Assembly (NCBI GenBank): GCA_028753945.1
Contig: JAPNXP010000004.1
Coordinates: forward strand, 2,914,001-2,978,000
Source of the DNA: Hexactinellida sp. DTS-2022
Lineage: Eukaryota > Porifera > Hexactinellida
Length of the DNA stretch: 64,000 nucleotides
Direction of reading: 5' to 3'
The notes under the pieces were generated by a model, which had not been told where the DNA came from, searched no databases, and was given only the letters and a program-made list of their open reading frames with translations. Below are positions 1,769-32,659 of this stretch, one piece after another; position 1 is the stretch's first letter, and each line of letters starts with the position of its first letter. Both the position numbers and the translations under genes were made by a program.

Positions 1769-1795
1769 CACAGTGGGGCAAATACACCGATTAAG
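1769..1795 (+). repeat. Left (5') terminal repeat of RAG-like element 1
   Basis: Heptamer CACAGTG (1769-1775), then the rest of the 15-base TIR. An inner box ACCGATTAAG lies at 1786-1795. GATTA starts at 1789, leaving a 13-base spacer after the heptamer. The matching box at the other end lies 22 bases from its heptamer. Confidence 0.8.
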
Positions 1796-2529: not shown

Positions 2530-3003
2530 TTATCTCGCCCTCTCATCTCGAACTTTTCGCAAATCACACTTGATCGCCTCACTCGTCTCAATCGATTCCC
2601 GCTTGAAGGTATTGAACTCCTCGCGGTCCTCGTCTCTCTGCTTCTTGAAGTAATTGATTGTGTCCCGGTCTTCTTCCCACTGCCGAATAAACAGGCGGAG
2701 AGCTTCGCGATCGTCTTCTCTCTGCTTAGACAAGACAGCTATATTATTGTGATCCTCTTCTCTTTCCTTCACTAATGTACAAATTCTAGCTCTATCATCT
2801 TCTCTCTCCTTCTTTAAAATTGTTAATGTCTTCCTATCCTCTTCACTTTGCTGTTTCAATACAGTCACCGTCTTGCAGCTCTCCTCCAATTGATGACTCA
2901 GGAATAGCACAGTGTTCCTGTCCTCCTCTCTTTCCTTCATCATAGACTCCATATTACCAAGGATATTGGTAACTTCTCTGCAGATTTCTGCTAGTGAGTC
3001 CAT
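2530..3003 (-). CDS. Coiled-coil protein of 14-residue repeats, inside RAG-like element 1
   Basis: Intact 157-residue ORF, divergent from the transposase. From about residue 22 to 143 it is built of roughly 14-residue units of the form (K/R)xREEDRxxIxxLx, for example KEREDDRARICTL, KEREEDHNNIAVL and KQREDDREALRLF. Two heptads per unit imply a long charged coiled coil of E, D, R and K with hydrophobic positions at heptad spacing. No signal peptide, membrane segment or zinc motif is seen. It is not RAG2: there is no kelch pattern. It stays open while the neighbouring transposase has several frameshifts, which could mean selection, chance, or simply that codon-periodic repeats tolerate drift. 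Function unknown; oligomerisation is the only inference offered. Confidence 0.5.
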   Translation of the reverse strand: MDSLAEICREVTNILGNMESMMKEREEDRNTVLFLSHQLEESCKTVTVLKQQSEEDRKTLTILKKEREDDRARICTLVKEREEDHNNIAVLSKQREDDREALRLFIRQWEEDRDTINYFKKQRDEDREEFNTFKRESIETSEAIKCDLRKVRDERAR

Positions 3004-3290
3004 CTACCCTGTAGCTATTTATTTATTTATCTAGTTAAATTAAATTATTGTATAGAAAATTTTAGTAAATTTAGGGTCAAATAACCTCGTATTGTACTTG
3101 TTCTTCTTTATATACTCCTCGTGAAACCTTTTATTAAAAAAGTGATCTGTAAGTGTATCCTGAGTTATGTATCTCAGTTAGTATTAAACTTGTTGACATA
3201 GGCATATGACTAGATCAGAAATTGGTTGCCATTCTAAACATTTGTTCCTTTATAGATTTCATTATTTACCTACGTATTTTTCACATAGAT

Positions 3291-3463
3291 GCATTATACG
3301 ATTATACGTTATACGTTCGGGGAGCGATAATGGACCATATATACGTACGTTAAAATCGTAATACGTTGTATGATGATTATACGTTACGTATGATGGCATT
3401 ATACGTTCACCTATCGTATAATGGTACCACATATACGTTATACGTTACGTATAATGCAACTAT
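3291..3463. repeat. Short inverted-repeat block rich in TATACGTTATACGT
   Basis: Begins GCATTATACGATTATACG and ends with the inverted form CGTTACGTATAATGC; the similarity extends outward (CATAG..GCATTATACG). The interior is repeated ATACGTTATACGT units. It looks like a MITE or foldback within element 1, upstream of the transposase. No clear target duplication. Confidence 0.45.
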
Positions 3464-3536
3464 GAATTTTTTCTTATGACTAGATATTTTTTTTACAAAT
3501 ATAGCTACAACTCGAAACACAGGAAACTTTATTCCA

Positions 3537-5717
3537 ATGAACAATAAAGAAGCATATGAATTTCTCAATCAGAGCGAGAGCTGTTCAAACGCAGCCCGCA
3601 AGTACATCAACAACAACTTAGATTTGGATGAATCCAATTTTAATTCTCTGAAATCCAGATTCAATAAATTAAAATTATCTAGGGTAAACTACGTGAAATT
3701 GAAAAATATTGATACCTGGAATACTCAACCTTTTGTCCCAGTAGACGCACAGGATATCAATTTTCCCAAGAAACGGAAATGTGTTTCTACTGCTGATTCA
3801 ATCGTACTCTATCCACTGGAACCTTTTGCAGAACTTGCAATAGTCAAACTGTATGCCTAAATTGCTCCGATGGGATTTTTGCTGAACAAAATTCTGACCA
3901 GCGAAAACACATCAGTGAGTTGAAATTGGAATCCCAAAGGTCTAGGCTCAATGTCTTATTGCAGCACATAAATTTTATAGCTAGTCGTAAAGATGTTAAC
4001 GGAAAGGAAATTGCAACCTATGCACTCAAATTAATTTCTAATGTTGACCATGACAGGAAGGTATCTAATGTTTGTTCTGAAATTTTGCAAACAGGTACTT
4101 TTGCACAGCCCCTGAAACAGTTACCAATTGAAAAATCTGCTTTCTTGCTTGATAGTTTGGAAATTGGTAAAATAAAATACTCGAACATTCGAAAATTATG
4201 CAAGACAGAGCCATAATTTTTCCAACATATAAAAAAGTTGCTTCATTTCGTTCCGATATCTCTCTTTCAAATCGAATTACATTAATCGAATGCGATGGAC
4301 AAACAATTGGTGCAGGTTACTCTTATTTCGAAATCGTACAACACACCACTGAAAGGATTTTAAAAATGTTTACAGTAGATCCAAGTCAATACCCAATAGA
4401 ATTAGAAATTGCAGATGGGCTCGATGGTTCAGGTAGTCATAGAATCTACAACCAAATAAGCAACAACCCCAATTTCACAACCAAAAACCTTTTATTGTTT
4501 GCTTTCAAGGTTCTTTCGATTAAGGACAGAAACTCTGCCACACTATGGTGCAACTATCTCCCTAATTCACCTTTTTCCACTCGACCAGTTAGTTTGTTGG
4601 CAAAGAACGAATCTATTGAGACAGTTGAATTTCTGATGAAAGAATTTAAAAGATAGCATGGAGTTATCAGGTGGCCACTGTATTCTTAAAGTACGTCGTA
4701 CTATGTTCGATGGAAAGATGTCAAAAATATTAAGTGGTGCTGGTGGCGCTCCTTGCCAATTATGCACTGTGAAACATGCTCAGCTCAAAGACCTTGAACT
4801 AATAAGATCTGGTTTTCCGATAAACCGCCAGATTCAAGACGCGATTGCACTGTTTAATGACATTGATCAAGAAGAATTTTTGAAGTTAGATTCTAATTCG
4901 AGATTTGGTTTAACTCATCCACCAACTTCTACTATAGATATTATCCCGGCATCACCTCTCCATAGCTATTTATGCGTATTCCGCTGGTTCATGTTGCTTA
5001 TATATCACCTCGATGCAGGCTCACATAAATGGTCTCCAACATCTCCATTGATACAGACATCCATGAAGCGAGTTAGAGCTGTATTAACTGAAAAAACCGG
5101 TTATCAAATTGATCTTCCAACCTGCGATGGAGGTACCACTACAACTGGAAATGTTGCAAGAGATTGTTTTTTCTGATAAACGCGACTTCTTTAAGTGGGC
5201 AACATCAACCATTAGCGAGAAAGATCGAGAATTAATCCAAATAATACACCAAAATCTTTCTGCAATTTTAAGAGTATTTAACAGCAGCCACAAAATCGAC
5301 GTAACACAATTGAGTATACTTTGCAATGATTCTTATGAATTTATTGTAGTAAACTTCCACTGGGCCAATATTACTCCATCACTCCACAAATTGCTGGCCC
5401 ATTCCGCAGAACTCATCGAGAAGTACAACAATGGCTTTGGTCTTAAGAATTTTTCAGAAGAGGGACTTGAAGCATTGAATAAATATGTCAGGAAATTTAG
5501 GGAACACCTAGCAAGAAAATTCTCATTCGAAATGAACATAAAAGATATTCTTGTTAGGTTGACAACTCAGAGTGATCCCATACTCGTTAACCACAGACTT
5601 TCAATTATCAGCAAAAAAAAACATGATGAAAATTTAACCTACCAGGATTTCATTGTGGATAAGTTAATATTGTGCAAGGAAGATCTGCAAGGATGTAAAG
5701 ACTGCATGTTATGAAAA
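3537..5717 (+). pseudogene. RAG1-like transposase, frameshifted
   Basis: Pieces 3537-3860, 3827-4203, 4198-4656, 4658-5176 and 5165-5717 lie in changing frames but form one protein in order. N-terminal CRTCNSQTVCLNC (from 3827) is a CxxC-x5-CxxC zinc-type motif. Then come QRSRLNVLLQHI, FPTYKKV and EIVQHTTERIL, and the first acidic site ADGLDGSGSHRIYNQ (about 4414-4450). Next are CQLC (4754-4765), GGTTTTGNVARDCF, and LHKLLAH (H-x4-H, about 5385), matching the C/C/H/H zinc site of RAG1. FSEEGLEALNKYVRKFR (about 5457) corresponds to the last catalytic Glu region. The middle acidic residue (RAG1 D708 position) aligns with PLHSYLCVF, where no Asp is evident. At least four 1-base shifts. Domain order fits both RAG1-like and Transib transposases. 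Confidence 0.8.
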
Positions 5718-5829
5718 GTTTATTGATTAATGGAGGTTATTTCCATTGTTAGATAAGTTTAGTTTACTTATATCTGATAGTTTATATGCTAGTATATATT
5801 AATTAATAGTTGATCATTTATTGTAAATT

Positions 5830-6243
5830 ATGATGACGTCATATATCACACATCACACATTTGAAGGTATGCGACTGAAATAAATGTCTCAATAGATTCC
5901 TGGACATCGATAACCTATAGGTTGGTAGTATATTCTACGGGTCTATCTCTATCCATCAAGGAGTTATCCAATAAAAACAAAAAGTGTCCATTTATGATGA
6001 CGTCATATCTCACACATTTGAAGGTATACGACTGAAATAAATGTCTCAATAGATTCCTAGACATCGATAACCTATAGGTTGGTAGTATATTCTACGGGTC
6101 TATCTCTATCCATCAAGGAGTTATCCAATAAAAACAAAAAGTGTCCATTTATGATGACGTCATATCTCACACATTTGAAGGTATGCAACTGAAATAAATG
6201 TCTCAATAGATTCCTAGTCATCGATAACCTATAGGTTGTTAAT
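5830..6243 (+). repeat. Three tandem 3' subterminal modules of RAG-like element 1
   Basis: Units start at 5830, 5994 and 6151 (164, 157 and about 93 bases). Each holds TGACGTCA (5834, 5998, 6155) and CATCGATAACC (5905, 6062, 6219). Start-to-start spacing is 71, 64 and 64. The last box ends at 6229, leaving 81 bases to the element end. TGACGTCA is the palindromic CRE/ATF site. The same arrangement recurs in element 2. Confidence 0.85.
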
Positions 6244-6274
6244 ACTTTTCGAGTGACTATCTGTGCTCTAAATA

Positions 6275-6310
6275 CCTAATCGTTGTAAACTCCCAATTTG
6301 CCCCACTGTG
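6275..6310 (-). repeat. Right (3') terminal repeat of RAG-like element 1
   Basis: Read inward on the minus strand: CACAGTG (6310-6304), then the rest of the 15-base TIR, and the inner box AACGATTAGG (6284-6275). GATTA starts at 6281, a 22-base spacer from the heptamer. Confidence 0.8.
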
Positions 6311-7442
6311 TGGGGTTTGCATGAACTTGAAGGGATATATTTGTGCCCATTGTTGCAATATGCGTTTTCAGAGTTTAAGTGTTCAGGAAGATTCAAGCCA
6401 TCTGATAATTGGTTGATATATATTTGCTTCATTTCTGGTGTCAGTGAATGCGGAATGGGTGTGTTCGTCACCGTTTTGAAAATCATCGGATGATATTCTT
6501 TAACAGACATATTTGAGTCGGGCGCAATACTATGCTGGTACTCGCTTATGGTTTTCTTTTCTGGACAAGGACCTTCACAATCAATGGAATAGAAACAATT
6601 ATCAGTTACTTTAAATGTGTGTAGATCAGTTTCGTTTAGAATACAAATGAATTTCTTCGAAAATATATGAAGGTGATGAGATCTTATGGTAATAGGACAG
6701 GAAGATGGGATACATTGGTCTTCTAACGCAATTTTATATGTTTTTATGTGTAAACAATCAACCTCTAGGCACTGATTACAAGAACCATTTTTGATAATCA
6801 CAATACGACCTTGAACGAGATGAACGATATCTAGAAATGAACAATAATATGTTATTTTGAATGAAAAATTAGTAAGTACAGTAAAACCTCAATAGTGCGA
6901 AAATGATTAATACAAATTTCCGTTTCGTACGAACACAATCTTGGACCCTTCAATGCTAATTTGGATAAGACGAGCAAATTATTACTGTCCCTTGGTGTTC
7001 GTAATAATGAGGTTCTTAATGTACGTCATAAATATATCTTAATTAAAGGGTGATCCAAATTTTTTAATAAAATTTACCAGATTCTTCATTGATTTCATAA
7101 TCATACATCAAGATTATTTCCGACCCGGATAATTGCAAAACTCCAGAATGTTGGAGGAGAGTAACAAATACTTTTCTTCAGGACTCGATTCTAAAACTTC
7201 CACCATCAAATCGTGTTCCTGATACGATGATTCGTGATCTGAGAAATAATCATAAATCTGAGTTCCTTCAGCAGAGTTTAGTTGAGGCGAAATTATTCCT
7301 GGAAATAAGAAAATTTGTAGTACGCACAGTAAGCAAGATAAAGTTTATACTTACCCAATTCAAATTCAAAATAACTATCTTGTTCAGGTTCTTGTGAGGA
7401 CACAGGAGACATGTTGATATCTTCCATTATGTAGTCTGCCAT

Positions 7443-7960: not shown

Positions 7961-9867
7961 CAGGTTGAGGGTGCTCAGGGCGATTTGAGACGATTTCGCT
8001 TAGAGTCTTCACCGTATCGAGGGCAGCCACCATTGTCTCTTCCTTGCCCTGAAGCATCTCAGTAGCTACTGCGCACATAGGCAGCAACTAATGCATTGTC
8101 AATAGGTGACCCACAAAACAAGAAGTAAGCTTTAATTGTAAATTTCGGGAAGTGGTACCGCGGACTCCACTTTATTCCGCAAACTCGTCAATGACGTCCC
8201 TCACAGCGGCCAGAGTTGCAGATAGCGTGAATAAAGCTCTACACTGGAAGACCCATCTTGTCTGAGAAACACTGGGAATCTCGCGCGTCTGACGTTCCGG
8301 GTAAGGTTCATTTTGAATAGCAACATAACGGGAATGCATTACGCTGGTAGACAGAAAGTTATGGAATTGTTGTAGAGTAACGAAAAGGTCACAAACTCTG
8401 CCGTGAGTCTTTACTAGGTCCATCACAACGAGATTTAAGCGGTGGGTGTAACAATGTACATAAGTCGCATGTGGCACTACCTCTTTGAACCGTTGTACGC
8501 CGCCGAGCTGACCACTCATGACAGCCGCCCAGGGACGGAATAAGCCATGGTGAGGCCCTAAGCTATATTGACTTCTGAGCCCCCCCCCCCCCCCCCAATT
8601 CAATAAGGCCTCCTAAACTTGTGAGGCCCTAAGCTATAGCTTAATTAGCTTATGCCATAATCCGGCCCTGCAGCCGCCCCGTCGTAACATTGCGAACAAC
8701 AACGCTGAGGGTCGATCCCACTATTCCGCAGAGTGTGGAGGATAGTTCCATAGAGTGCCTTGTATCCAGTTCTTCGCACTCCTTGAAGCACAGAAAGTTC
8801 TCATGAATTTCGCCGTTCCTCAAATAGCTAAGGACGATTGACATTTGCTCTGCCTTGGACGAGTCACGAGTTCCGGCCGCCATCACAGCATATACTCCGG
8901 CTTCGACAACTTGGGTGACTATAAGCTGACGAACCAAGGCACTTGCAGAAGACAGAATATCATTCTGTATGTCATGATGTACGTATTTTTCGTTTCTTGG
9001 TCCAGATTCGAGACGTTTACGCACCACCCCGTCATACACACTAGTTAACGAAACTATTTCCAAGAAGTTTCCTCGGTTGAGTGTGGGATTGTCAACGTCG
9101 ACCTGCTCACGATGGCCCCTTAGACTTAGAGCGATGCCCTGTATTGCACAGAGGATGACGAGGCGGATGATTCAGATTACGTAATGGCGGTTGTCGTCGA
9201 TTTCCTGTTTGTGTGCACTGTGATGCTGCTGGCTACTCACTGAATAGACTTCGACTTTACTTTCTCGAATGTTTTCCATTTCACAATGGCAGACTTGTGT
9301 TGCTCGCTGGCATTGTGATCTTCTAACTTCTTTTTCCGTGTGCAAACTTTTGCATTCCTTTGGTTCGGTAAGCGTCATGACCAGCAAAAATGAATTGACG
9401 ACAAGCGTAACAAAACACACTATTGTCCTTTTACTATATTCAACCCAATAAAACATTCCATACCAGTCAGGATTGGAGCGGCGACCAGTGTTACCAACCA
9501 CAGGATACGAAAGCAACTTGGGTTGAGGCTGAGCTGGCTTCTCGTCTGCGAAGGTGGACAGATCATCAGGCCCAGGAGCATCATTTCTATGACGTTTAGA
9601 GGATTCAGGAAGAGTGTTACTCATCATAATAAGTAGTAACGAAGAGGGTACAACTATAGTATTGTACCGGATACACACTTTATAAAGACGATTCTTTCTT
9701 AATGAACCATAATACATACTAAAAAAGACGAGTCTTTCAAGACGAGTCTTTTCAATATGCACATAATATTCCGGTACAATACTATAGTTGTACCGAATTA
9801 ACTAATGCATTTTGTATTTCCCTTCATATTTATTGCAATCCCCTGAAAATACCTAGCGCCGCCTCTC
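7961..9867 (-). pseudogene. hAT transposase copy (TTF-type zinc finger), arm 1, truncated
   Basis: The minus strand runs from a TTF-like finger region (about 9300-9620) through PHATYVHCYTHRLNLVV (about 8470-8400), the typical hAT catalytic-insertion motif, to TVKTLSEIV near 7990. Breaks include stops and shifts after the finger, a poly-C run at 8580-8596, and loss of the C-terminal dimerisation domain at the arm boundary. The arm-2 copy retains that domain. The 5' terminal repeat GAGAGGCGGC maps to about 9867-9858. Confidence 0.75.
9647..9794. mobile_element. 148-base MITE, arm 1 copy
   Basis: Ends are inverted copies of GGTACAACTATAGTATTG (about 24 matched bases), themselves nearly palindromic. 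The interior has a doubled GACGAGTCTTT. The same MITE is at 15141-15288 in arm 2. Confidence 0.7.
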
Positions 9868-10050
9868 CAAGGCAGTAAGATTAGAACTGGGCCACTATAC
9901 TATAGTATAGTCGGCACAGTATTATAATAACTAACCAATGCACTAAGATTAGAAATGGGCCACTATACTATAGTATAGTCGGCAGTGACTCGGCACAGTA
10001 AAAATAATAATAATAAAGGCAGTGAGATTAGAACTGGGCCACTATACTAT
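9868..10050. repeat. Blocks of CTATACTATAGTATAG repeats, arm 1
   Basis: Several copies of a unit of the form GTGCCGACTATACTATAGTATAGTGGCCCA plus AT-rich (ATT)n spacer, given here as its core CTATACTATAGTATAG. Matching units lie at 14560-14694, 14885-15067 and 21812-21870. Unassigned dispersed repeat. Confidence 0.6.
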
Positions 10051-10240
10051 TGTTAAGATTGGAAGTATACTGATACTTTAATAAGTAATGTAAAGTACGA
10101 AGGAATACTGAACAGTATGCGAATCATACTAATCCCAAACGCTATACTACTTATACTATTAACTGGGAATAAGTCCTGTGCCTAACACGTAATGGGTGTT
10201 CGACTGTTGCTATGCGACTAAGATAACAAGACTCATAGCA
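10051..10240 (-). repeat. 190-base LTR (3' LTR of the gypsy-type element)
   Basis: On the minus strand it begins TGCTATGAGTC and ends CCAATCTTAACA. It is preceded by a purine-rich GGCGGGGTGA tract that serves as the polypurine site. The same LTR in opposite orientation lies at 14695-14884. Confidence 0.75.
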
Positions 10241-10856: not shown

Positions 10857-11752
10857 CTATCTCGGGCGATGTTCTCTAGTTCTTTTTTTTTTCTTTTTCA
10901 GGGTGTTAAGGTACTCCTCATGGGATCTCTCTTCTTCGCTGAGATTTTCGCACCAGGAATCAAGTGGAGAGTGGGGCACGCGTCCAAATGTGAGGATATG
11001 CGGAGACAGGCTGGTCGCATTTATCTTGCCGTTTATGTGAAAACTCACTTCGGTTAATAATCCTGGGCAACTTGCTTTCGCTAGGTGGCGGTCTGCTTGT
11101 AAGCACCGAATTACCTGTTTCACTAGTCCAATGTGTCGCTCAGCCATGCCGTCGCACTGAGGATGATAGGGCGTTGTGCGTATTGTTTACCTCTGCTAAC
11201 CGGAAAAACTCCCGGAACACCTGACCATCCACGTTCGTTCCTTTATCCGTCAGTATGATCGAGAGCATGCCGTGACCCCTGTAAACCCAGCCTTGTTCAA
11301 ATGCCCTGAGCAAACTACTCGCCTCCTGGTCCTTTAGGGGTTCCAGTTCCACATAGCGAGAGAACAGGTCAACCATTAGGAGGAAGTATCTGTGGCCCCC
11401 TTCCTGACTCTCCGTCCATGGCAACGTCCCTATATCCATCGCAACTGCTTCGCCCGGCACGCCTTCTCAAGGCTCATTGGACACATTGGCTCGCGTCCGC
11501 TGTTGTCGTACTTGGACCTTTGGCAGGCAAGGCAACTCTACAAAACGGCTTTACGTCGCAAGTCATGTGGGGCCAAAAGAAATGTTTCTTGAGAGAGTCT
11601 AGGGTCACAGCCTGCCCGAAATGGTGTTGGCAATGCGTAGCCTCAATTGTTTCCCGACGAAGGTGGGCCGGAACGACCACTCTGCTTCGAAAATGGAGTA
11701 TACCCCATATGATTCCGAGTCTACTACTGACCCTCTTAAAGGCCCGATGCAA
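10857..11752 (-). pseudogene. Integrase of the gypsy-type element, frameshifted
   Basis: The His/Cys region reads EATHCQHHFGQAV and FFWPHMTCDVKPFC (11752-11474). The catalytic core is in another frame at 11460-11140: AMDIGTLPW (first Asp) and ILTDKGTNVDGQVFREFF (second Asp). The third frame, 11147-10857, has MAERHIGLVKQVIR, the region after the catalytic Glu, and ends in a Lys/Arg-rich tail. At least two frameshifts separate the three pieces, so the copy is inactive. In Ty3-type elements integrase follows RNase H, as here. Confidence 0.8.
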
Positions 11753-13143
11753 CGTCTCCGCGTCGTAGTTGTTCGAGTACTGTCCGAACGGTGCCGTCCT
11801 GGAGTTGTTGGTCTCCTATCCTCTCGTACAAATCCTCGGGTCCCATTGTGTGAAATATCTCCTCCTCAAAGACATTGTGGTTGGCTTCTTCATCCAAGTT
11901 CATTGCGGGGCATCGACTAAGGTAGTCTGCCACTACGTTATCCCTCCCGGGTCGGAAACTAATGTGAAAGGGTAGCTCCTGCAGCTCCATCAGCCAACGT
12001 GCATAGGTACGTTTTGGATCCTTCTGTGTCTGTAGCCATTGGAGGGGGCAATGGTCTGTCAAGAGGACTATGCTCGGGGCGCCTTTAAGGTACACTGACC
12101 ATTTTCGAGTCCCTGCGATCAATGCCCACGCCTCCAACTGTCCCGCCGAGTAATTCTTCTGACTAGAACTGAACGCAGACGAAAAGAATTGGATAGGCCG
12201 TAGTTTACGGGTGTTCTCGTCCAGCTTTGATAGAATGGCTGCCACCCCTGTTGAGCTTGCGTCGGCCTCCACGTAGAACTCTTTATTCCATTTAGGATGA
12301 GCGAGGGACACGGGTTCGCGTACTAGTCTTGTGCGTAGCTTCTCGAACGCCTTCTGGCACGCTGCGTCCCAATTCCACACTTTTCCCTTTCGCAACAGGG
12401 AATATAGAGGTTGACCAATGAGAGACATGTTCTCAATATAGCACCGGTGATAATTTGCTGTACCGATAAACCGCTGTAGCTCCGTAAGCGTTCTGGGTAC
12501 CGGGAACGACTTGAGCCTCTCTAGGTATTCTGGTACTGGGCTTCGCCCTTCCTCGGCTATCTTGTGTCCTAGAAACTCGATAGATCTGTGCCCCAGCTTG
12601 CACTTGTCCCTGCGTAGTAAGAGGCCAGACTCTCCCAGCCGGTTAAACACCGCCTTTATGTGTTGTACGTGAGCTTCGAAGGTCGGGGAATTTATCAAAA
12701 TGTCATCCACATAGCTTTCGCAATTAGGGATGTTCCCTAGGGTACGGTCCATCACCCTATGGATGGTGGCCTTGGCGTTACATAGCCCGAAAGGCATTAC
12801 GTTCATCTCATGCTGTCCCCTAGGGGTATGAAATGCCGTTTTCTCGATTTCGCTTGGGTGGACAGGAATCGACCAATAGGCGGAGGCGACATCCAACTTT
12901 GAGAAATAACGATTCCCAGCGAGACGATCGAAAATCGATTGCGGATTTGAAACTGTACTCGTCGCGCTTTGTAACGAAGTTCAACCGACGGTAGTCTACT
13001 GCAAATCGTAACGTCCCATCCCTTTTCTGGACCAAGACTATGTCGGAGGACCAAGGTGAATAGCTGGGTCTACAAATGGGAGGATCGGCAGCTAGCATCT
13101 CCTCTAATTGCCTTGAAATCTCTGGCTCCCAATGTAGGGGCAC
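11736..13143 (-). pseudogene. Reverse transcriptase and RNase H of the gypsy-type element
   Basis: The first piece (13143 to about 12900) carries the RT entry, DIVLVQKRDGTLRFAVDYRRLN. After a frameshift, 12896-11736 is a 386-residue open stretch: MDVASAYWSIPVH, MPFGLC, and the catalytic box YVDDIL near residue 62. Then follow the RNase H connection (FYVEADASSTGVAAILS), FFSSAFSSSQKNYSAGQLEA and LLTDHCPLQWL. The catalytic Asp residues of RT and the first Asp of RNase H are present. The clean 386-residue run shows limited decay. Grouping with Ty3/mdg4 rests on the RT-RNase H-integrase order. Confidence 0.88.
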
Positions 13144-13918
13144 TCTCCTTGGCCGTGATCTCTGGGGTGCTGCGTTGTCCGTCTGTATGCGATGTGGCTC
13201 GTCGATAAGGCATCTTCTTGGAGGCTTGGGATGGAGGGCGAATACGCGCTTGATTTCCCTCGTTAGTTGCCCAAGCGTCTCTTTCTCCTAGTACTTGGAT
13301 CCGTTCCATCACGGGGCTCCTGTCGCCAACTTGGACCATGGCCTCCACGTAACCGCTAACCCTAACGGGGTAGTTACAGAGGCCGTAGACTCGTCGCATC
13401 GCGGGAATAATCGGAAGATCCAGTCTATGTGCTGTCTTGATGTCAATCAAGCTGGGCCGGGCACCTGTGTCTAACATAGCTTCAACTTTATGGGGACCTA
13501 TGTACACCTCGATCGTCACGGCATCTTTGTCTCCTTGAGCCAAGAATATTTGATTCTTAACAGTAGTCTTTGGTTCTCTCTGCACCCCTGTAAACGTAGT
13601 TCTCGTGTGTCTCTGTCCCCCTGCTCTCCTCGGTTTGCGTGGGCACTCGGACGGCCTATGGCCTAACGTCCCGAAAATCGTACACCGCTTGTTTGGACAA
13701 TAGCGTATTAGATGTTCACGCGAACCACAGCAATAGCACTGCAGACGTTCAGGCCTTCCTTTGTAGTCTCTCCCTCGGCGCTCCCGGCTAACTTGTTGCA
13801 CCTTAGGGTAAACCGGGTCATTAGAATCGTCGCTTGCTTCTCCTGGCTTGCCTGGCTCGACGAGAAGTGAGGCATCCGTAACGTGCTGCACTCGACATCC
13901 ATGGTCTACCGAGAACAT
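13070..13918 (-). pseudogene. Nucleocapsid zinc knuckles and aspartic protease, gypsy-type
   Basis: A 282-residue open piece. CYCCGSREHLIRYC is a CCHC knuckle, followed by a second imperfect one (CTIFGTLGHRPSEC). About 50 residues on is the protease active site, AMLDTGARPSLID. Basic residues between them fit a nucleocapsid. It continues toward the RT frame at 13143, where the two overlap after a shift. Retroviral-type proteases act as dimers and cleave the polyprotein; a single DTGA motif is as expected. Confidence 0.82.
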
Positions 13919-14694: not shown

Positions 14695-14884
14695 TGTTAT
14701 GAGTCTTGTTATCTTAGTCGCATAGCAACAGTCGAACACCCATTACGTGTTAGGCACAGGACTTATTCCCAGTTAATAGTATAAGTAGTATAGCGTTTGG
14801 GATTAGTATGATTCGCATACTGTTCAGTATTCCTTCGTACTTTACATTACTTATTAAAGTATCAGTATACTTCCAATCTTAACA
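14695..14884 (+). repeat. Lone 190-base LTR in arm 2
   Basis: TGTTATGAGTC to CCAATCTTAACA, inverted relative to 10051-10240 and in exact arm register (sum 24935). Flanked by ATAG on both sides, a possible 4-base target duplication. It has no internal region attached. Confidence 0.75.
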
Positions 14885-15140
14885 ATAGTATAGTGGCCCA
14901 GTTCTAATCTCACTGCCTTTATTATTATTATTTTTACTGTGCCGAGTCACTGCCGACTATACTATAGTATAGTGGCCCATTTCTAATCTTAGTGCATTGG
15001 TTAGTTATTATAATACTGTGCCGACTATACTATAGTATAGTGGCCCAGTTCTAATCTTACTGCCTTGGAGAGGCGGCGCTAGGTATTTTCAGGGGATTGC
15101 AATAAATATGAAGGGAAATACAAAATGCATTAGTTAATTC

Positions 15141-15288
15141 GGTACAACTATAGTATTGTACCGGAATATTATGTGCATATTGAAAAGACTCGTCTTGAAA
15201 GACTCGTCTTTTTTAGTATGTATTATGGTTCATTAAGAAAGAATCGTCTTTATAAAGTGTGTATCCGGTACAATACTATAGTTGTACC
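15141..15288. mobile_element. 148-base MITE, arm 2 copy
   Basis: Inverted ends GGTACAACTATAGTATTG. Exact register partner of 9647-9794, so it predates the duplication. It supplies an upstream ATG in frame with the hAT ORF, but the natural start is more likely ATG 15308 or 15311. Confidence 0.7.
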
Positions 15289-16054
15289 CTCTTCGTTACT
15301 ACTTATTATGATGAGTAACACTCTTCCTGAATCCTCTAAACGTCATAGAAATGATGCTCCTGGGCCTGATGATCTGTCCACCTTCGCAGACGAGAAGCCA
15401 GCTCAGCCTCAACCCAAGTTGCTTTCGTATCCTGTGGTTGGTAACACTGGTCGCCGCTCCAATCCTGACTGGTATGGAATGTTTTATTGGGTTGAATATA
15501 GTAAAAGGACAATAGTGTGTTTTGTTACGCTTGTCGTCAATTCATTTTTGCTGGTCATGACGCTTACCGAACCAAAGGAATGCAAAAGTTTGCACACGGA
15601 AAAAGAAGTTAGAAGATCACAATGCCAGCGAGCAACACAAGTCTGCCATTGTGAAATGGAAAACATTCGAGAAAGTAAAGTCGAAGTCTATTCAGTGAGT
15701 AGCCAGCAGCATCACAGTGCACACAAACAGGAAATCGACGACAACCGCCATTACGTAATCTGAATCATCCGCCTCGTCATCCTCTGTGCAATACAGGGCA
15801 TCGCTCTAAGTCTAAGGGGCCATCGTGAGCAGGTCGACGTTGACAATCCCACACTCAACCGAGGAAACTTCTTGGAAATAGTTTCGTTAACTAGTGTGTA
15901 TGACGGGGTGGTGCGTAAACGTCTCGAATCTGGACCAAGAAACGAAAAATACGTACATCATGACATACAGAATGATATTCTGTCTTCTGCAAGTGCCTTG
16001 GTTCGTCAGCTTATAGTCACCCAAGTTGTCGAAGCCGGAGTATATGCTGTGATG

Positions 16055-16090
16055 CACAGTGGCTTAAAATCGCAGTTGGTAGGGAATAGA
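16055..16090 (+). repeat. 3' terminal repeat of RAG-like element 2
   Basis: CACAGTG (16055-16061), then AGGGAATAGA at 16081-16090. GAATA starts at 16084, a 22-base spacer, the same value as at the 3' end of element 1. This is the 3' end because the transposase reads on the minus strand. Confidence 0.82.
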
Positions 16091-16135
16091 TATCTGTGTG
16101 CACTTTAGCCTATTATAATGTATTAATTACATATG

Positions 16136-16368
16136 GGTTATCGATGTTTAGAAAATGTTTGGTCATATCAAAATTTATTTACACCTCATACTTTGTCTGT
16201 TATGACGTCATGATGATGATACTTATTTTTTTGAAATTCTGAAATCCGCTATATCTTTCGAGTTTGCGTTGTACTATGAATTAATTACATATGGGTTTTC
16301 GATGCCTATGCATCTTTTGACATATAAAAAAATTATTTATGGCTCCAGATGTATTAGTTATGACGTCA
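16136..16368 (-). repeat. Two 3' subterminal modules of RAG-like element 2
   Basis: In transposase sense: TGACGTCA (starting 16368 and 16210) followed by CATCGAAAACC (starting 16304) and CATCGATAACC (starting 16146). Spacing is 64 bases in both. The last box ends at 16136, leaving 81 bases to the element terminus, exactly as in element 1. A shared TTAATAC follows both. Confidence 0.85.
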
Positions 16369-16526
16369 TACAACCGTGTTTTTTTTTAATTTCTGGTATT
16401 AATTAATTTAACCCCTTAAATTAATATTTTGCAATTATGTGTCGACTGTACCTAGGAATTGCTTAGAAAATTAATTTACTTATTGCCTTAATTCATTCAA
16501 AATAGGTTTATTAATTATATAATACA

Positions 16527-17163
16527 CTATTTACAGCTGACGTAAGCTCGTATATTTTCTTTTACCAATTTCCAAATAATCAAGAAGAAACAACTACTTA
16601 TCAATCGGAACTTTTTTCGTGTTATCGCATCACAAAAATCTCCAGCATAGGCAATCTTTTTGGAAATCTGAGCTAACTGACGGTTATCGTCTTGATTGGA
16701 TACCAATTGTAAAGAAATAGCTGCGATTGAAATTTCTGACATGTCTTCAATTTCTGAAATTTCTTTAATGCACTCCAGTAATTTAGAGAGGCGTGATCTC
16801 TGATGTTTCAAATAAACACTATCGAGACTCTTTCTATGGATAGGTCTACTTTCATCAGGCACAGAGGACGTAGTAAAGTCAGCTGGAGTTGATAGACGAC
16901 TCTTTTTAAAGTCCATAATTAAAATCGATTTGAGAATTCCACCATTCTCCATCCAATTCGTCAACTGACTTCCTTCCTTTCCTCACATTATTACGAACCC
17001 TCCATAGCAATGATTGCAAGGCACTATTATTTATTCCAACAGACTCTTCAATTTCAGTCAATGCTGCTTGAATATTGAATTCATGCGACTTCAAAATCTT
17101 TGCCAAATCAAGTCTGGTCTTGGGGATATTCTGATCACTAGCTGCCATTTGAGATAAATACAC
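16527..17163 (-). pseudogene. N-terminal fragment of a RAG1-like transposase
   Basis: Two overlapping pieces. The first starts near 17148 (MAASDQNIPKTRLDLAKIL) and holds QSLLWRVRNNVRKGRKSVDEL and WNSQIDF. The second, after a 1-base shift near 16920, reads MDFKKSRLSTPADF then LKHQRSRLSKLLECI and LQLVSNQDDNRQLAQISKKI. This matches element 1 in order: FNSLKSRFNKLKLSRVNY, WNTQPF, INFPKKRKCVSTAD, QRSRLNVLLQHI, LKLISNVDHDRKVSNVC. The CxxC motif of element 1 is absent, and everything from the first catalytic Asp on is missing. It ends at ENIRAYVSCK and a stop. Confidence 0.78.
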
Positions 17164-17835
17164 AAAAAAATGAATGAAAATTGACGCGAATTATGGTCAC
17201 TACTATCTTAAACAAAATATATATCACATATGAAACAGCAGAATCAAATAACTTGGTGGTTACAATGGATATTGAATTGCAGTTACCAAATTGAGACTTG
17301 GAATCTTGCATAGTAACCGAATGCTCACATTGGAATGTAGTATATATTTTTATTTCCGGAGCGAACCGGAGGTTGTGACTTTGTATACTAACTCTACATA
17401 CATTAATTGATTTTCTGAAAGTATATTCAATTTGTATTTCTTTGCATAATGGTGTTTCCGCACACTTCAAATATCTAGATTTGTTACAATTTGTTTAATT
17501 TTACAGGTGATATTAAAAATAATATTTCTTGGAAAAATATTTAAGCTACACTACTATGATTAAAAATACAGTTTCAGAATACTTATATTACTAATCTAAA
17601 TTTAGTACACACAAAAAATTGCCATAGTAACATAATTATATTGACTCTAAGTAGAATACCTTATTTCAAATTCCAACAAAACCGCAAATGGAACTAAATT
17701 ACTCCAACGTTCGAAGGCAATTTTTATATACTTGTAGGCTTTAGATAAGCTGGAAATTTGAAATTTAGAACACTATGGCAATCAAATAACAATAAACAAG
17801 CTGGAAAACACAATACTACAGACCTCAATAATTGG

Positions 17836-17861
17836 TCTATTCCCTGCCATAAGCCACTGTG
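17836..17861 (-). repeat. 5' terminal repeat of RAG-like element 2
   Basis: Read on the minus strand: CACAGTG (17861-17855), GCTTATGGC, then AGGGAATAGA (17845-17836). GAATA starts at 17842, a 12-base spacer. The surrounding 13 bases match the other end at 12 positions. Confidence 0.82.
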
Positions 17862-18723
17862 TGATGGCGGCCGGAACTCGTGACTCGTCCAAGGCAGAGC
17901 AAATGTCAATCGTCCTTAGCTATTTGAGGAACGGCGAAATTCATGAGAACTTTCTGTGCTTCAAGGAGTGCGAAGAACTGGATACAAGGCACTCTATGGA
18001 ACTATCCTCCACACTCTGCGGAATAGTGGGATCGACCCTCAGCGTTGTTGTTCGCAATGTTACGACGGGGCGGCTGCAGGGCCGGATTATGGCATAAGCT
18101 AATTAAGCTATAGCTTAGGGCCTCACAAGTTTAGGAGGCCTTATTGAATTGGGGGGGGGGGGGGGGCTCAGAAGTCAATATAGCTTAGGGCCTCACCATG
18201 GCTTATTCCGTCCCTGGGCGGCTGTCATGAGTGGTCAGCTCGGCGGCGTACAACGGTTCAAAGAGGTAGTGCCACATGCGACTTATGTACATTGTTACAC
18301 CCACCGCTTAAATCTCGTTGTGATGGACCTAGTAAAGACTCACGGCAGAGTTTGTGACCTTTTCGTTACTCTACAACAATTCCATAACTTTCTGTCTACC
18401 AGCGTAATGCATTCCCGTTATGTTGCTATTCAAAATGAACCTTACCCGGAACGTCAGACGCGCGAGATTCCCAGTGTTTCTCAGACAAGATGGGTCTTCC
18501 AGTGTAGAGCTTTATTCACGCTATCTGCAACTCTGGCCGCTGTGAGGGACGTCATTGACGAGTTTGCGGAATAAAGTGGAGTCCGCGGTACCACTTCCCG
18601 AAATTTACAATTAAAGCTTACTTCTTGTTTTGTGGGTCACCTATTGACAATGCATTGGTTGCTGCCTATGTGCGCAGTAGCTACTGAGATGCTTCAGGGC
18701 AAGGAAGAGACAATGGTGGCTGC

Positions 18724-19024
18724 CAGTGCTCGACAAAATGAAATTTAGATGGTGGCTAATTAAGCCACCATCTCACTTTTTCTGGTGGCTAAAGAATAAT
18801 CAACGGCCGGTTTAACTGACAACTGATGGCTTGAGAAAATTCTGATGCCGTAAAACAACAATAATATTCATAACCAATAATTCAACGAACAATTTAATCT
18901 ACACAACATTAAATAATTCCACAATTAATGGTGGATTAGTTAAGCCACCAAAGTTTAAATTTGGTGGCTTAAGAAAGATTTTTGGTGGCTAACGCCACCA
19001 AACCACCTAATTTGTCGAGCACTG
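18724..19024. mobile_element. 301-base hAT-type MITE inside arm 2
   Basis: TIR CAGTGCTCGACAAA at both ends. 8-base duplication GTGGCTGC at 18716-18723 and 19025-19032; the empty site is in arm 1 near 8030. Internal copies of GGTGGCT(T)AA and their inverses. No ORF. Confidence 0.92.
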
Positions 19025-26487: not shown

Positions 26488-28003
26488 TCACAAATGAGAG
26501 ACCAAGATATTCAATTATGTCGATATTTTTTGATGGAAACTTTTCATACAATAAATATAATATTAAATTAATTTTAAATCATTTTTTTCCCAAAGAAGCG
26601 AGCACGTACAAGCTGTGTCATCCATTGTTCTGATTATCCTTCGGAATCGAGTATTTAGTGTCATCGAAAGATCTTGACTCATTTAGGACAATCTTAAAGG
26701 CAGCCGAGATCAGAAAGCATGCCCCGCTTCTGGACATAGCCAAAGGCCTCCCAGAAGGAGAGATGCCTCCAGCGCACATTATACAATATCACCGCAAGTG
26801 TCGCGGCATTTTCACAATGAACAAACTACTGGAGTCCATAGCTGCCAAAGAAACCAGCACAGAGAGTGATACAGACAAAACCAGAAGGTCCTCCAGAGTG
26901 GCATACTCCACATCCAGAGTCTAAGAGAAAATATGCATATTCTGTAACAAATCACGCAAGTATATTAAAGGTCAGAACACCAGAGAGCCTCTCATCCAGT
27001 GTGTTGAACTACGTGCAGATGACATCATTCGTAAAGCTGCAACCAGAAAACTGGATGAAAGAATGTTATCAATCTTGAGTATAGAGCTGGTTTCAGCTGA
27101 AGGACATTACCACAGAACATGTTACTGTCTGACACACGTGTTGAATCTGCTGTCAGCTCATCTGTTAGTTTGACAAAAGAGCAAACGAGTATGCAGTGTA
27201 TCAAGAAGCAGAGAGTCAAGCCCACGAGGAGCTGTTTTTCTACATCAGAAATGAACTGATGACAAATCCAATAGTTGAACCCATGACAGAGTTAACATCA
27301 AGATTGGAGGGGGCTTTGAATTCTTTTGGTATTTCTGAGTTGAAACAGTCATTCAAGAAACATCTGCGTCGAAAGCTTGAAAGTGAATTTGGTTTTCTGA
27401 TGCCAATGGAAGACTTGTTGTGTATCCAGGCAGTCTGTCTAGGAATGAGCTTGCCAGAAAAGCACACCAGTGAAGAAAGAACTGCAAAATACAAAAGCTG
27501 CCACTTATATAGATGCTACTGGCAAGACAGCTATGCAGCTGAGATATGACATAAAGAAAAGAGATGTCATTCAGTATTGGCCACCCAACCACAGAAAGAC
27601 AAGGACATCATCCCAGAATCAGTCACACAATTTTTGTATACCCTGCTGACTGGGGGATCTGACTGAGGAAACTCTGTGAAAGAATCCAGAGACTAGCCAC
27701 TAGCTTTGGTCTTTGCTGTCACTTGTGGAAAGTTAAAGCCACCCAAGCATATCCTCCTTCCATTTGCTGTGAAGCAATACAAACTTGATACGAATTCTGA
27801 ATCTGCTTGGCCACGGTGTCTCCTATTCACAAGTTGAGGAGATTGACACTACACTATGTCTCCAGAAGCAAGATATCTCTAAGGATAATGTGCCACTTCC
27901 AGAAATGTCTACTCAGTTGTCTTCACAACATTGGTATGGGACAATATTGATCTCTTGAAGAGACAACAAGTGGAGAGGGGACCTCTCATCGAGTCGGGGT
28001 TTC

Positions 28004-28160
28004 CCCAGTTGAGCGAAACTTTATTGAGCGAAACCCGCTTGAGCGAACCCAATTGAGCGAAATCCAAATGAGCGAAACCCAAATGAGCGAAACCCAAATG
28101 AGCGAAACCCAAATGAGCGAAACCCAAATGAGCGAAACCTATGAACTAATTGAGCGAAAC
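28004..28160. repeat. Left TIR array of the MULE
   Basis: Tandem 15-base units of the type TGAGCGAAACCCAAA, about nine copies. Inverted counterpart at 29800-29945. Outermost bases CCCCAGTTGAGCGAAAC match at both ends. Confidence 0.85.
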
Positions 28161-28244
28161 ATAAGCAAGTTAGTTTAATTAATAATATAGAGTATTGGAA
28201 CTTAATTAATTATGAATGACAGATAAATATTTGAACAAATGGTA

Positions 28245-29633
28245 CTATAGAGATATGCTTGTAGGTTGTGCAATGTTGTAAGCTATTCCAGTTAGATATT
28301 GGTCAATATTCTTTCGCCCTAAAGTGTAATCATCTGTAAGATGTTTAATCTTTTCATTAATCTGCTTATATTTGAGATTATTGCTATGAGGCTTTATATT
28401 TCCTGCTGCAACTTGTGCTAAAAGAGTTTCTGTACATCCCTGCTCTCTGATCAGCTTTGATACAAATTCATAAATATTTGCATGGGCCTTTCCAACCGAA
28501 CGATTTAACCTAAGATGCCAACCTTCTAGATTATTATTGGTTCTCCTTTGTACCCCATACATATTCCAAAGCTTATTGTCCACAACTTCAATCCAGTAGT
28601 GCTCAAAATAATCGAACAGTGTTTGCAATTCAACTGGACCATCATTCCTTAGGCCTTGAAATATTAGAGAGATAAGTTCAATGGGGACAAAGGCCAGTGC
28701 AAGAAGCTTTCGTATATATATTCGATGAGGTCCATCATGAACATATAATTGTGATAAACCCAAAACTTGCACCTTGCGATAAATTGCCTGGCAAAAATGA
28801 AAGTAACATCCACGGACACAAGCATTTGGAAATTCCAGTCTAATGCTTTTTATCAGGCCACTTTCAAAATCACAAGTGACTAACTCAGGTGCTAATACTA
28901 CGTTTAAATTGCCAGCGTTATCTTTGAGAGCACGAAATAATTCCGAATAAATGACTCGCGTTTTAGCGGAGAGTAGGCAGTAAATGAGAGGAATTAATTT
29001 GTCACCTTCGAACGCATGGATGGTGAAGAGTTGAAGATATAAGTGAGGTACACTCCTAAATGTACCGTCTACACACCAATGTACTTTAGTAGAAAGCATT
29101 CGAATATTGTCTTCTGTACCGAAAATAAGGATTTCATTGTTTGAAGAAGAGTATTGCAGAAAGGTAGAACCAGCAATTGTTTGTTGAAGGTCTGTAGGCA
29201 AATTAAGTGCTTCTCTAGAAATTGGGAGTGTAGGGAATTTCTTCAATCTCTCTCGATATAAAGAGGAGTCAATTTGACTAAATAAGGGGAATCGTGATGC
29301 AATTGTAGGAGTAACTGAGAGCATTGCTGTAGCATCGCCGTAGAGCGTTGGTATAGGAGTTAATTGAGTCCTTGCCTTCACTTTAAGATCAGATACTACA
29401 ATTTCAATATACCTAGCATCTGGATCTGGTATGCAATGCTCACGGTGAGGTATTCGCGTTTGAATATCTGTATTTTCCTGGATATTTGCACTATAGACAC
29501 ACCCATTGCAGTCTCGTGTGCGACACCGCCATCGTTTTTTAGTATTGGCTGACACTAATTTGTCAAATCTATAAGAGTATCCTTCAAAACAAAGTGCAGG
29601 GCAGTTTTTTGTTGTTTCGTATTTTGATGCCAT
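28245..29633 (-). CDS. MULE transposase with FLYWCH-type zinc finger, intact
   Basis: A 462-residue uninterrupted ORF filling the element. Residues about 15-68 form a FLYWCH-like finger: W35, C37, C42, then H63 and H66/C67 (RWRCRTRDCNGC, PHREHC). The catalytic fold has WCVDGTFRSVP (D189), VTCDFESGLIKSI (D255), the GCYFHFCQAIYRKVQ block, and NNNLEGWHLRLNR (E370), which is the MULE DDE order. Length fits animal MULE (Phantom-like) enzymes. ATG 29633 lies just inside the right TIR array. Exact target duplication and an open frame suggest a recent insertion. It should cut at the inverted GAGCGAAAC arrays and make 9-11-base duplications. Confidence 0.9.
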   Translation of the reverse strand: MASKYETTKNCPALCFEGYSYRFDKLVSANTKKRWRCRTRDCNGCVYSANIQENTDIQTRIPHREHCIPDPDARYIEIVVSDLKVKARTQLTPIPTLYGDATAMLSVTPTIASRFPLFSQIDSSLYRERLKKFPTLPISREALNLPTDLQQTIAGSTFLQYSSSNNEILIFGTEDNIRMLSTKVHWCVDGTFRSVPHLYLQLFTIHAFEGDKLIPLIYCLLSAKTRVIYSELFRALKDNAGNLNVVLAPELVTCDFESGLIKSIRLEFPNACVRGCYFHFCQAIYRKVQVLGLSQLYVHDGPHRIYIRKLLALAFVPIELISLIFQGLRNDGPVELQTLFDYFEHYWIEVVDNKLWNMYGVQRRTNNNLEGWHLRLNRSVGKAHANIYEFVSKLIREQGCTETLLAQVAAGNIKPHSNNLKYKQINEKIKHLTDDYTLGRKNIDQYLTGIAYNIAQPTSISL

Positions 29634-29799
29634 TTGAAGATACGTATTATATAAGATATAAAAGCAGTATTTATATAAAATTTATCTGAGTGCTGTATAG
29701 TATTTACATACACCTTATTAATCGTTTATCCTAATCACCTTCATTTTGGCCATTGTAAGTAAATTCTTCATTGATAGCATCATGTACATTTAGAACTTC

Positions 29800-29945
29800 G
29801 CTCAATTAGGCTTCGCTCAATTACGTTTCGCTCAATTGGGTTTCGCTCAATTAGGTTTCGCTCAATTGGGTTTCGCTCAATTAGGTTTCGCTCAATTGGG
29901 TTCGCTCAAGCGGGTTTCGCTCAATAAAGTTTCGCTCAACTGGGG
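29800..29945. repeat. Right TIR array of the MULE
   Basis: Tandem TTTCGCTCAATTAGG / TTTCGCTCAATTGGG units, the inverse of the left array, ending GCTCAACTGGGG. Confidence 0.85.
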
Positions 29946-32659
29946 ACGAATCATCGAGTCAATGGGATTGTTATTCAGCCCTACGTTCTCCAGCAAAGTA
30001 CACCAGCAAATGTCATGCCAGTCATCACAAAGTCAAAACAGAGAAGAAGCATCCCTAAACCATCATTACTACAAGCCTACAACGTCGGTCAGCGGGCTGG
30101 ACCACCAAAGTTTGAGACATTGGATGTTGACACTAGCAACCAGGTCCAGGAGGCAAAGATGAAGAACTTTTTCTGGTTGCTTGCACGCATGTCGAACCCT
30201 GAGAACCAGACAATCAGCAGCTGGACTGGCTTTAACATCCAGATCAGGGATAATGTGGTTGTGATCCAGGACACTGTGAGCTACCTGCCAACAATCAATG
30301 CTCCTGCTACAGCTATGTCCACTGTAAATGAAGTTCTCAACCAAACACTCAACATCATGAAGTCCCTGCACCTAAACCAAATTGTCTGTGTGTTTGACCA
30401 AGCATTGTATGCTAATACTGCAGAGATAGTGTGGAAGCAAGACAAATTATAAGAACATTATCATAAGGATGGGTGCATTCCATACTTCTTCAACCAGTTG
30501 TCCACAATTGGCAAGCGATTTCAAGATGCAGTACTGAGGGACCTTTGTGTCGAGTCTGGAGTGATTGCAGAGGGATCAGTTACTGCTGTGATGGAAGACA
30601 GAAAGTACAACCGTGCAATTAGAGTGCACAAGCTGGTATATGAAGCAATGATGAGGCTGGCATGGAAAGGCTTCCTTCCATGGCCAGAGAATTCCTGTAG
30701 ATCAAACAATTGAGGAAACTGTCAACAAAGATACACAAACACCTGGTCGGACGAAAGGCTTCACAGCCTAAAGTGTGGAGCTGTCACAAGATATTACATG
30801 ACATCAGAGTACCGAACTATGTATCTCAGGCAGCTGAGGGAAATGATAGGTCACCAGGATAGCGATTTCAGCACCCAGAATCAAGCGAGATGAGACTGAT
30901 ATCCAGTCCTTGGTAGATTTCATGGAAACAAGTTGGTTGAATCCATTCAGTCCAGACCAACAAGAACTGGTGAGTTTGTCAACTGCTACTGCTGCACTAC
31001 CAGACATTGCTAAAGATCTTCTTGGAGCCCAAAAGTTAGGAGAGGAGGCCTATCAAGCTTTAAAACAAGAACATCTAGAAGTAACTCCACCAGCTACACA
31101 TTTTTATGACAAGATGACTAAGAGGAAATTGAAAACTTTCTCAAACATCAACAAGAGAATGCGCAGCCAACAGCAATCCAAACAAGTTGTCCTAAAAGCT
31201 GACAGGAAGTTGTTTGGACAGATGATTCTTGTTGCTGAAAGCAGAGACCTGTGTATTAGTGAGGTCATGACCCATCCCCTGGGGTCTCTACCATGGTCCC
31301 TTGTAATGGTGATGGATCCATGCGGAAAAACTAACAAAGCTGCCTTGGCAAGAGAGTTAGACAAAAATGCTTCCCCTGCCGAAGTCATCCCAGATCCATG
31401 AGTATTGTTCAAAGATGAAACGAAGTGACAAGACATTTTCACAACTGGCATGGGCAGAGTTAACCCTATCACATGTTCTCATGAAGGTGCCAAGAGTCAG
31501 CGCATTGACGTTATCTTTGATGTTTACAGAGAGAAATTCATTAAAGATGGAGAGAGAGTCAACAGAGGAGCAGATATGAGCATCCAGTTCAGAAATATTG
31601 CGCCTGGGCACAAAATTCAGCAGTGGAGGAAGTTACTCTGCAGTCCATCCAACAAGTAAAGTCTGATCTAGTTCCTGGTTAATGAGTGGAAGGAGTCTAG
31701 ACTGAGAGAGAAGCTGCAAGACAAGGAATTGTACGTAACCTGTGAGCAAGTGTGCTTGAAGATGACCATGGAGAAGTGGGAAGAAGCACCAGAGCTCAAC
31801 TCATCACAGGAAGAAGCAGACACGCGCATCCTTCTTCATGCACTCCATGCAGCAGAATTTGGCTGTAAGGCTGTGATAATCAGTGCTGAAGACACATACA
31901 TCTTAGTGCTGTGCCTGGCAGTAGCCACATCCCATATCCCATGTATCAAAAGTGTGGCACAAAGAACCGCACACGGTATCTAGACATCACAAAGTTTTCC
32001 AAAGATTAGGAAGTGGTGTCTGTGATGCCTTGGTTGGTATGCATGCTTTCTCAGGCTGTGACAGCATCAGTGCTTTTGCAGATTGTGGGAAGACGACTTC
32101 CTTCAAGATGTCGAAGTCTGACAAGACCTACCAGGAGGTTTTCAATCAACTTGGACATTCTTGTGATTTATCAGCAGAGTTGTTTCAGAGATTGCAGCAG
32201 ATCACCTGCCAAATGTATCTGCTATCCACCCGCACTACTGAAGTCAACGAACTGCGGTATCAACTCTTCTGTGCCAAGCGTGGAGAGGTGGAGTCCTGTC
32301 AGCTCCCACCTTGTAAGGACTGTATTTTCATGCATGCCCTGCGTGCCAACTATCAAGCTGCATATGGAGGCGATGCCTGCAGTGCCAATCCTTCATTCCA
32401 GGCCCCAAGGATCATGGCTGGATCTATGACGATGATGGTTAGTTGGATGTGGAATGGATGTGAGGGGCTCCTGCACAGGATACTGTGCTACAGCTGCTGT
32501 CTTGTAACTGTTCCTCATGCAAACTGCCAGATTGCAGCTTCCCTACAATGGCTTATGGTGCACAGATAAGTGCAGGCTTCAAACCTGTGACAACCAGGCC
32601 ATGATAGAGGAGCAGGCTGCAGAGCTAACAGACTCTGATACTGATTATGATGAAAATTA

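Follow-up and report, generated by a model that had tools for sequence, protein, structure and literature searches.

Heptamer-to-box spacers of 12-13 and 22-23 bp at opposite ends of Transib-type transposons in a glass sponge

V(D)J recombination signals carry spacers of 12 and 23 bp, and the DNA considered here raises the question of whether a comparable asymmetry is built into the ends of transposons with a RAG1-like transposase. The DNA, referred to below as the window, is a stretch of 64,000 nucleotides from the glass sponge Hexactinellida sp. DTS-2022 (assembly GCA_028753945.1, contig JAPNXP010000004.1, positions 2,914,001 to 2,978,000), and it contains two transposons, E1 and E2, that terminate in the heptamer CACAGTG. 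A sequence-only reading had proposed that in both elements a box, GAWTA, lies 12 or 13 bases from one heptamer and 22 from the other. We find that a second box does recur at fixed and unequal distances from the heptamers in a whole group of such transposons, 12-13 bp on the transposase-5' side and 22-23 bp on the 3' side, the offset of 9-10 bp being about one helical turn.

E1 is on the plus strand and occupies positions 1764 to 6315 including its target-site duplications (TSDs; TGGGG, 1764-1768 and 6311-6315), the element proper running from 1769 to 6310. Its 5' heptamer (1769-1775, plus strand) is followed by a 13-bp spacer (1776-1788) and the box GATTAAG (1789-1795, plus strand), and at the 3' end the box GATTA (6277-6281, minus strand) is separated by a 22-bp spacer (6282-6303) from the heptamer at 6304-6310 (minus strand). 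The plus-strand transposase, whose frame is broken, comprises an N-terminal piece (3537-3857), a segment resembling the nonamer-binding domain (NBD) of RAG1 (3902-4042, the RAG1 homology being seen on a profile of relatives) and a catalytic region (4237-5711) in three open pieces (4237-4653, 4661-5173 and 5160-5711). E2 lies on the minus strand between 16050 and 17866 including TSDs (TGATG, 16050-16054 and 17862-17866) and is non-autonomous, with minus-strand transposase remnants at 16635-17148 (N-terminal piece 16942-17148, NBD-like piece 16635-16916). Its 3' end consists of the heptamer (16055-16061, plus strand), a 22-bp spacer (16062-16083) and the box GAATA (16084-16088, plus strand), its 5' end of the box GAATA (17838-17842, minus strand), a 12-bp spacer (17843-17854) and the heptamer (17855-17861, minus strand). 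Because the transposase is on the plus strand in E1 and its remnants are on the minus strand in E2, both elements have a short 5' spacer and a long 3' spacer, opposite though their orientations are; here the coordinates, base counts and polarity of the sequence-only reading were all correct, as was its count of 12 identical bases out of 13 for the inner boxes of E2, GGCAGGGAATAGA and GGTAGGGAATAGA. In E1 the best 13-mer match is 11. Of the heptamer pairs in the window that are separated by 50-8000 bp, only those of E1 and E2 have identical flanks of 5 bp. A random point in the window has GAWTA within 30 bp in 8.5% of cases, and random 33-bp pieces reach a best 13-mer match of at least 12 in 0.1% and at least 11 in 0.7%.

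Copies of the two elements keep both box and spacing. Among 40 listed matches to the E2 long-spacer end 30 were fetched, and GAATA is found at 22 in all 30; at short-spacer ends it is at 12 in 28 of 30, the remaining two being one with a degenerate box at 11 and a match that stops before the end. E1-like left ends (n=4) have the box at 13, as GATTA in three and AATTA in one, and in the nine E1-like right ends G/CATTA is at 22 in seven and at 21 in one, the last being without its end. The alignment of copies, in which a drifting box or variable spacers would have told against the original claim, thus leaves it standing. Within the E2 family 23 inward-facing pairs are unlike, that is, short with long, with 5-bp flanks that are identical in 15, differ in 7 and are untested in 1; in the lone like pair either end has a partner of its own, and 24 ends are partnerless. 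No TSD-matched partners were found within 24 E1- or E2-like loci, which reach only ∼1.5 kb inward.

Family ends were also defined without any use of the box, by fetching the flanks of transposase copies and placing the ends by heptamer and 5-bp flanks. Both ends could thereby be placed in 14 families, E1 and E2 included (copy I is without its 3' end and Q is family P again). The flanks are identical in 12 of the 14; in N one copy agrees at 4 of 5 positions and a second (C15) at all 5, and T, which would read 13/23, fails and was excluded from the subsequent scan. When the best twelve-base match between a family's two ends, beyond the outer 13 bp, is taken in the 13 remaining families, the offset between ends is 9 in nine families, 10 in two (E2 and K), 14 in Ee and -1, no sensible value, in M. 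Since p values for single families span 0.003 to 0.54, the strength of the result lies in the agreement across families, part of which is owed to the common descent of related ones. The spacer pairs are 13/22, 12/22 or 13/23 according to family, with a single copy at 9/23, and the polarity, short at 5' and long at 3', is constant wherever the box is resolved. The proposed 12/22 spacing is therefore near 12/23 as suggested but is one of several pairs, and GAWTA is likewise one version of a family-specific box whose core is often RAWTAGG.

The layout of the ends emerges from positions that agree between a family's own two ends, counted in 12 families with Ee left out, M fixed at offset 9 and the other offsets taken from the twelve-base scan, which introduces a slight bias toward within-family matches. 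In the box region 109 of 144 positions agree, as compared with 70.3 after reshuffling of the 3' ends between families (p 5e-5), and for outer positions 8-14 the corresponding values are 67 of 84 and 37.4. No excess is seen for spacer positions 15-20 (24/72 vs 22.8 reshuffled) or for eight positions lying inside of the box (20/96 vs 20.4). Two family-matched blocks together with an unmatched spacer of unequal length amount to the layout of a recombination signal, and each end is thus bipartite: CACAGTG with a family-specific outer extension, a spacer, and a second box matched between ends. An A-rich nonamer as the box common to both ends is ruled out, as an A-tract occurs only at 5' ends.

A pattern picked after the family ends had been seen, CACAGTGG-N(4-33)-RAWTAGG, which misses E2's own box, was used to scan the genome (112.4 Mb in 18 contigs). 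It occurs 629 times, as against 18 for the same pattern reversed, with 224 forward and 1 reversed occurrences at spacers of 12-13 and 355 and 1 at 22-23, so that 579 of the 629 fall on 4 of 30 spacings. Among 100 listed places the spacers are 13 (35), 22 (37), 23 (18), 11 (3), 21 (3), 12 (2), 17 (1) and 20 (1). For pairing we used the ends listed as far as C5:1,743,745, which number 169, with 69 coming from the 224 short-spacer and 100 from the 355 long-spacer occurrences. All 35 adjacent inward-facing pairs within 6 kb are unlike (13/22 in fifteen, 13/23 in fifteen and 12/22 in five), and the adjacent pairs more than 10 kb apart comprise 7 unlike and 6 like. Chance as the source of the box pattern is ruled out by the family-end scan, the shuffled-end test, the genome counts and the random-piece rates. 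Elements of non-autonomous size, 0.95-1.2 kb, with one short- and one long-spacer end occur in several families, for example at G000:C1:2191915-2193051.

What kind of transposon carries these ends? A protein query gave at least 151 matches (150 of 484 candidates scored). Names are carried by 13 of 65 protein relatives, all from Oopsacas minuta, which together with a genome of 112 Mb led to the rejection of a bacterial or phage host, and a second, profile-based protein search returned further relatives among the matches listed, the named ones again from Oopsacas. Identity among the transposases of 13 copies is 33-69% (longest open frames, those of P, F, Ee and T incomplete). A Transib/RAG1-type core is present in the group; Pfam names little beyond RAG1, and that near the cut-off. 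Homology to the RAG1 NBD was detected solely by the search with a profile of relatives, a lone NBD piece used as query giving no match. The α11-α12 region of ZnB is present as 48 profile positions, aligned to lancelet RAG1L, between stretches matched to HzTransib (404, 453), where HzTransib itself has 13 residues; this region is found in Subgroup I Transibs and is missing from Subgroup II (PMC9435367). A CTT1-type knuckle, Cx2Cx3GHx4-6C, is seen in 11 of 22 proteins of at least 600 residues and is altered or absent in the other 11 (19 of 106 at any length). In element A (3,142 bp between TSDs) there is one open reading frame (ORF) above 300 residues, of 743, and no second of at least 300, so that the linked RAG2L of RAGL (RAG1L-RAG2L) transposons is lacking in this one element, no genome-wide RAG2L search having been made. 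The comparison of transposases assigns E1 and E2 to one large Transib-type group of cut-and-paste transposons; what had been taken for two RAG-like families are families of this single group, and descent of E1 and E2 from unrelated ones is ruled out.

In the transposase tree J (the full-size copy of the E2 family) clusters with K and M at a support of 100/100. A 12-bp spacer is found in J and K; M, whose box is poor, was placed beside them because of where its A-tract lies. Changes of spacer length have thus been rare, while the sequence of the spacer has been replaced.

The built-in asymmetry that had been proposed does exist in the spacers but is not confined to them, as many 3' ends are long and multi-block and 5' ends are short. 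Twelve 3' ends that were chosen because they carry the palindrome TGACGTCA, or a near form, in register can be aligned gap-free for 156 bp. They share the block AAAATGGCAATT in the heptamer-box interval, TATTT beyond the box and then AAAATGTATTAT, TATAGGTTATCGA, GGCTTCA and TTATGACGTCA. We examined 21 3' ends, no fewer than five of which belong to second copies of a family. The palindrome begins 148-150 bp from the cut in 12 of the 21, and four others carry at 149 a form that differs by one base. In T it lies at 101, forms with one base changed occur at 138 in P and at 159 in Q, and F and L072 are without it. It starts 149 bp from the 3' cut in both E1 (6155-6162, again at 5998 and 5834) and E2 (16203-16210, again at 16361), and in E1, E2, B and L028 it recurs after another ∼157 bp. 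Conservation at 5' ends extends over only ∼40 bp, with an A-tract interior to the box, and among 12 such ends the palindrome is near 149 bp only in element A (148 bp). The distance is close to nucleosome length, and the palindrome resembles a CREB/ATF site. On the 3' side of E1 (5846-6316) a 157-bp unit is present three times, the others 97% and 67% identical to the first, up to the element end.

How might such ends be used? The catalytic core would bind and cut at the heptamer, and the box at both ends would be gripped by the N-terminal NBD-like domain, which like that of RAG1 would be hinged and dimeric. With an offset of one turn, one asymmetric dimer could hold one short- and one long-spacer end; the synaptic complex would thereby prefer unlike ends, with insertion staggered by 5 bp, and the blocks found only at 3' ends, in many families out to TGACGTCA at 149 bp, would probably help to mark the 3' end. 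We consider it probable, at roughly 0.6, that the box is read by the NBD-like domain and that there is a requirement for unlike ends. Several results weigh against it. The RAG1 NBD motif is GGRPR, and this is not kept in the sponge domain, which has RKPL-like residues instead, so that the domain may not bind the box. The Ee copy reads 9/23, M is without a clear box match, and of the eleven other families five (O, K, L, P and F) miss p 0.05 singly. When all inward pairs among the 169 ends are counted there are 38 unlike and one long-long within 6 kb, and 40 and 2 within 10 kb; copies moreover inherit both ends, so that unlike pairs speak for consistency rather than requirement. Finally, the extra 3' blocks and the 5' A-tract mean that the spacer is not the sole possible marker of end identity.

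The inheritance of both ends, non-autonomous copies included, lends itself to another explanation, in which the 3' spacer of an ancestor was by chance 9-10 bp longer and the pattern was simply frozen, the box being bound and either spacing tolerated with no preference for unlike ends. All families do belong to one group, and most Transib families are described with symmetric terminal inverted repeats (TIRs) in PMC8289069. Yet 12-13/22-23 has been kept while spacer positions 15-20 are unmatched and transposases have diverged down to 33% identity, and matches are concentrated on 4 of 30 spacings, so that we regard frozen ancestry as unlikely. Slightly less probable still is that end identity comes mainly from the long 3' array (AAAATGGCAATT, TATTT, TATAGGTTATCGA and TGACGTCA at 149 bp) as opposed to a short A-tract 5' end, with the box offset secondary. 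Other transposons do have one complex and one simple end, and the gapless ∼156 bp with several blocks in the twelve chosen 3' ends contrast with ∼40 bp at 5' ends, but P, F and others are without the palindrome at that place, and it is the outer TIR and the box that are matched between ends family by family. A host-factor or promoter site in place of a transposase site, for which a YY1 site reported in ProtoRAG TIRs (PMC7481187) offers a precedent and the likeness of TGACGTCA to a CREB/ATF site also speaks, is very improbable given a box at both ends, at a fixed distance from the cut, whose sequence changes with family.

Returning to the window, E2 splits one arm of an inverted duplication (8022-10240 and 14695-18724), the other arm having an empty site with a single TGATG (8881-8885, minus strand). 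The arms align over 2,219 bp with 99.87% identity, two mismatches and one gap, and 14 of 40 listed matches to the E2 left end, the window copy counted in, are 100% identical over 92 bp. E2 thus appears to have moved recently, although gene conversion between the arms would also account for their identity. The duplication encloses reverse-transcriptase and protease ORFs (11736-12896 and 13070-13918). Inside E1, upstream of the transposase, the minus strand has an open frame with heptad-like EEDR repeats (2500-3003), perhaps host-derived or an insertion, and at 27987-29946 there is a MULE transposase ORF with a FLYWCH domain (28245-29633), flanked by inverted arrays made up of 15-bp repeats.

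How do these ends relate to known systems? With V(D)J signals they share CACAGTG, the consensus heptamer, a second element at two spacers about one turn apart (12-13 and 22-23, near 12/23) and a homologue of the RAG1 NBD. They differ in that the box is of RAWTAGG type and not ACAAAAACC, an A-tract being found behind it at 5' ends only, in an offset of 9-10 rather than 11, and in belonging to a transposon, RAG2L being absent from the one complete element, A. According to Tao et al. 2022 (PMC9435367), asymmetric TIRs, an NBD equivalent and CTT1 are common to all Subgroup I Transibs. By the main-text description, in which no sponge is named, the sponge elements are like them in transposase type, α11-α12, NBD equivalent, 5-bp TSD and asymmetric TIRs, half of the long proteins also carrying a CTT1-type C-terminal knuckle. 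According to PMC8355894, Kapitonov and Jurka in 2005 described 12/23-like TIRs, in which a second element stands at ∼12 and 23 from a heptamer, for Transib5 (Drosophila) and Transib2/N1-N3 (Anopheles). There the second element is said to be nonamer-like; the sponge box does not resemble the nonamer, its versions at the two ends change together from family to family, and its spacing is seen in hundreds of ends. AanRAGL of Aureococcus has two conserved elements 4 and 13 bp apart at its two ends (PMC9435367), hence the same 9-bp offset, but it encodes RAG1L and RAG2L, ends in CACACCC and has its second element, by our computation, ∼10 and 19 bp from the heptamer. Lancelet ProtoRAG likewise has asymmetric bipartite TIRs and a 5-bp TSD, and in assays it shows a preference for unlike TIRs that is suggested to be ancestral (Tao et al. 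2019, PMC8289069); it differs in its 27/31 spacers, RAG2L and heptamer CACTATG.

That pairing of unlike ends may predate the 12/23 rule, one of two options in the sequence-only reading, is an idea already published (PMC9435367 and PMC8289069, with a related one in PMC8355894), and a requirement for unlike ends in synapsis is something that we infer. The architecture may parallel the 12/23 rule and may share ancestry with it. We put forward only tentatively, as a possibility short of even odds, that the rule was inherited from the Transib/RAG1 lineage, an NBD homologue in the sponge elements already reading a box at two distances one helical turn apart and enforcing unlike ends, so that vertebrates domesticated an existing rule in which the box was free to change; the proposal that invertebrate RAGL is relatively insensitive to TIR asymmetry (PMC7204232) speaks against an ancestral rule. 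A literature search for glass sponge and Transib found no paper, and a word search of the main text of the Oopsacas genome paper (PMC10280926) found neither Transib nor RAG1.

What is new is a set of Transib-type elements in a glass sponge with 12-13/22-23 signals over hundreds of ends and a family-specific box in place of the nonamer. The origin of the 12 and 23 forms of V(D)J signals is an old question that becomes testable here, as boxes that vary by family at both ends, hundreds of ends and recent copies provide natural swaps of box and spacer, apparently without RAG2.
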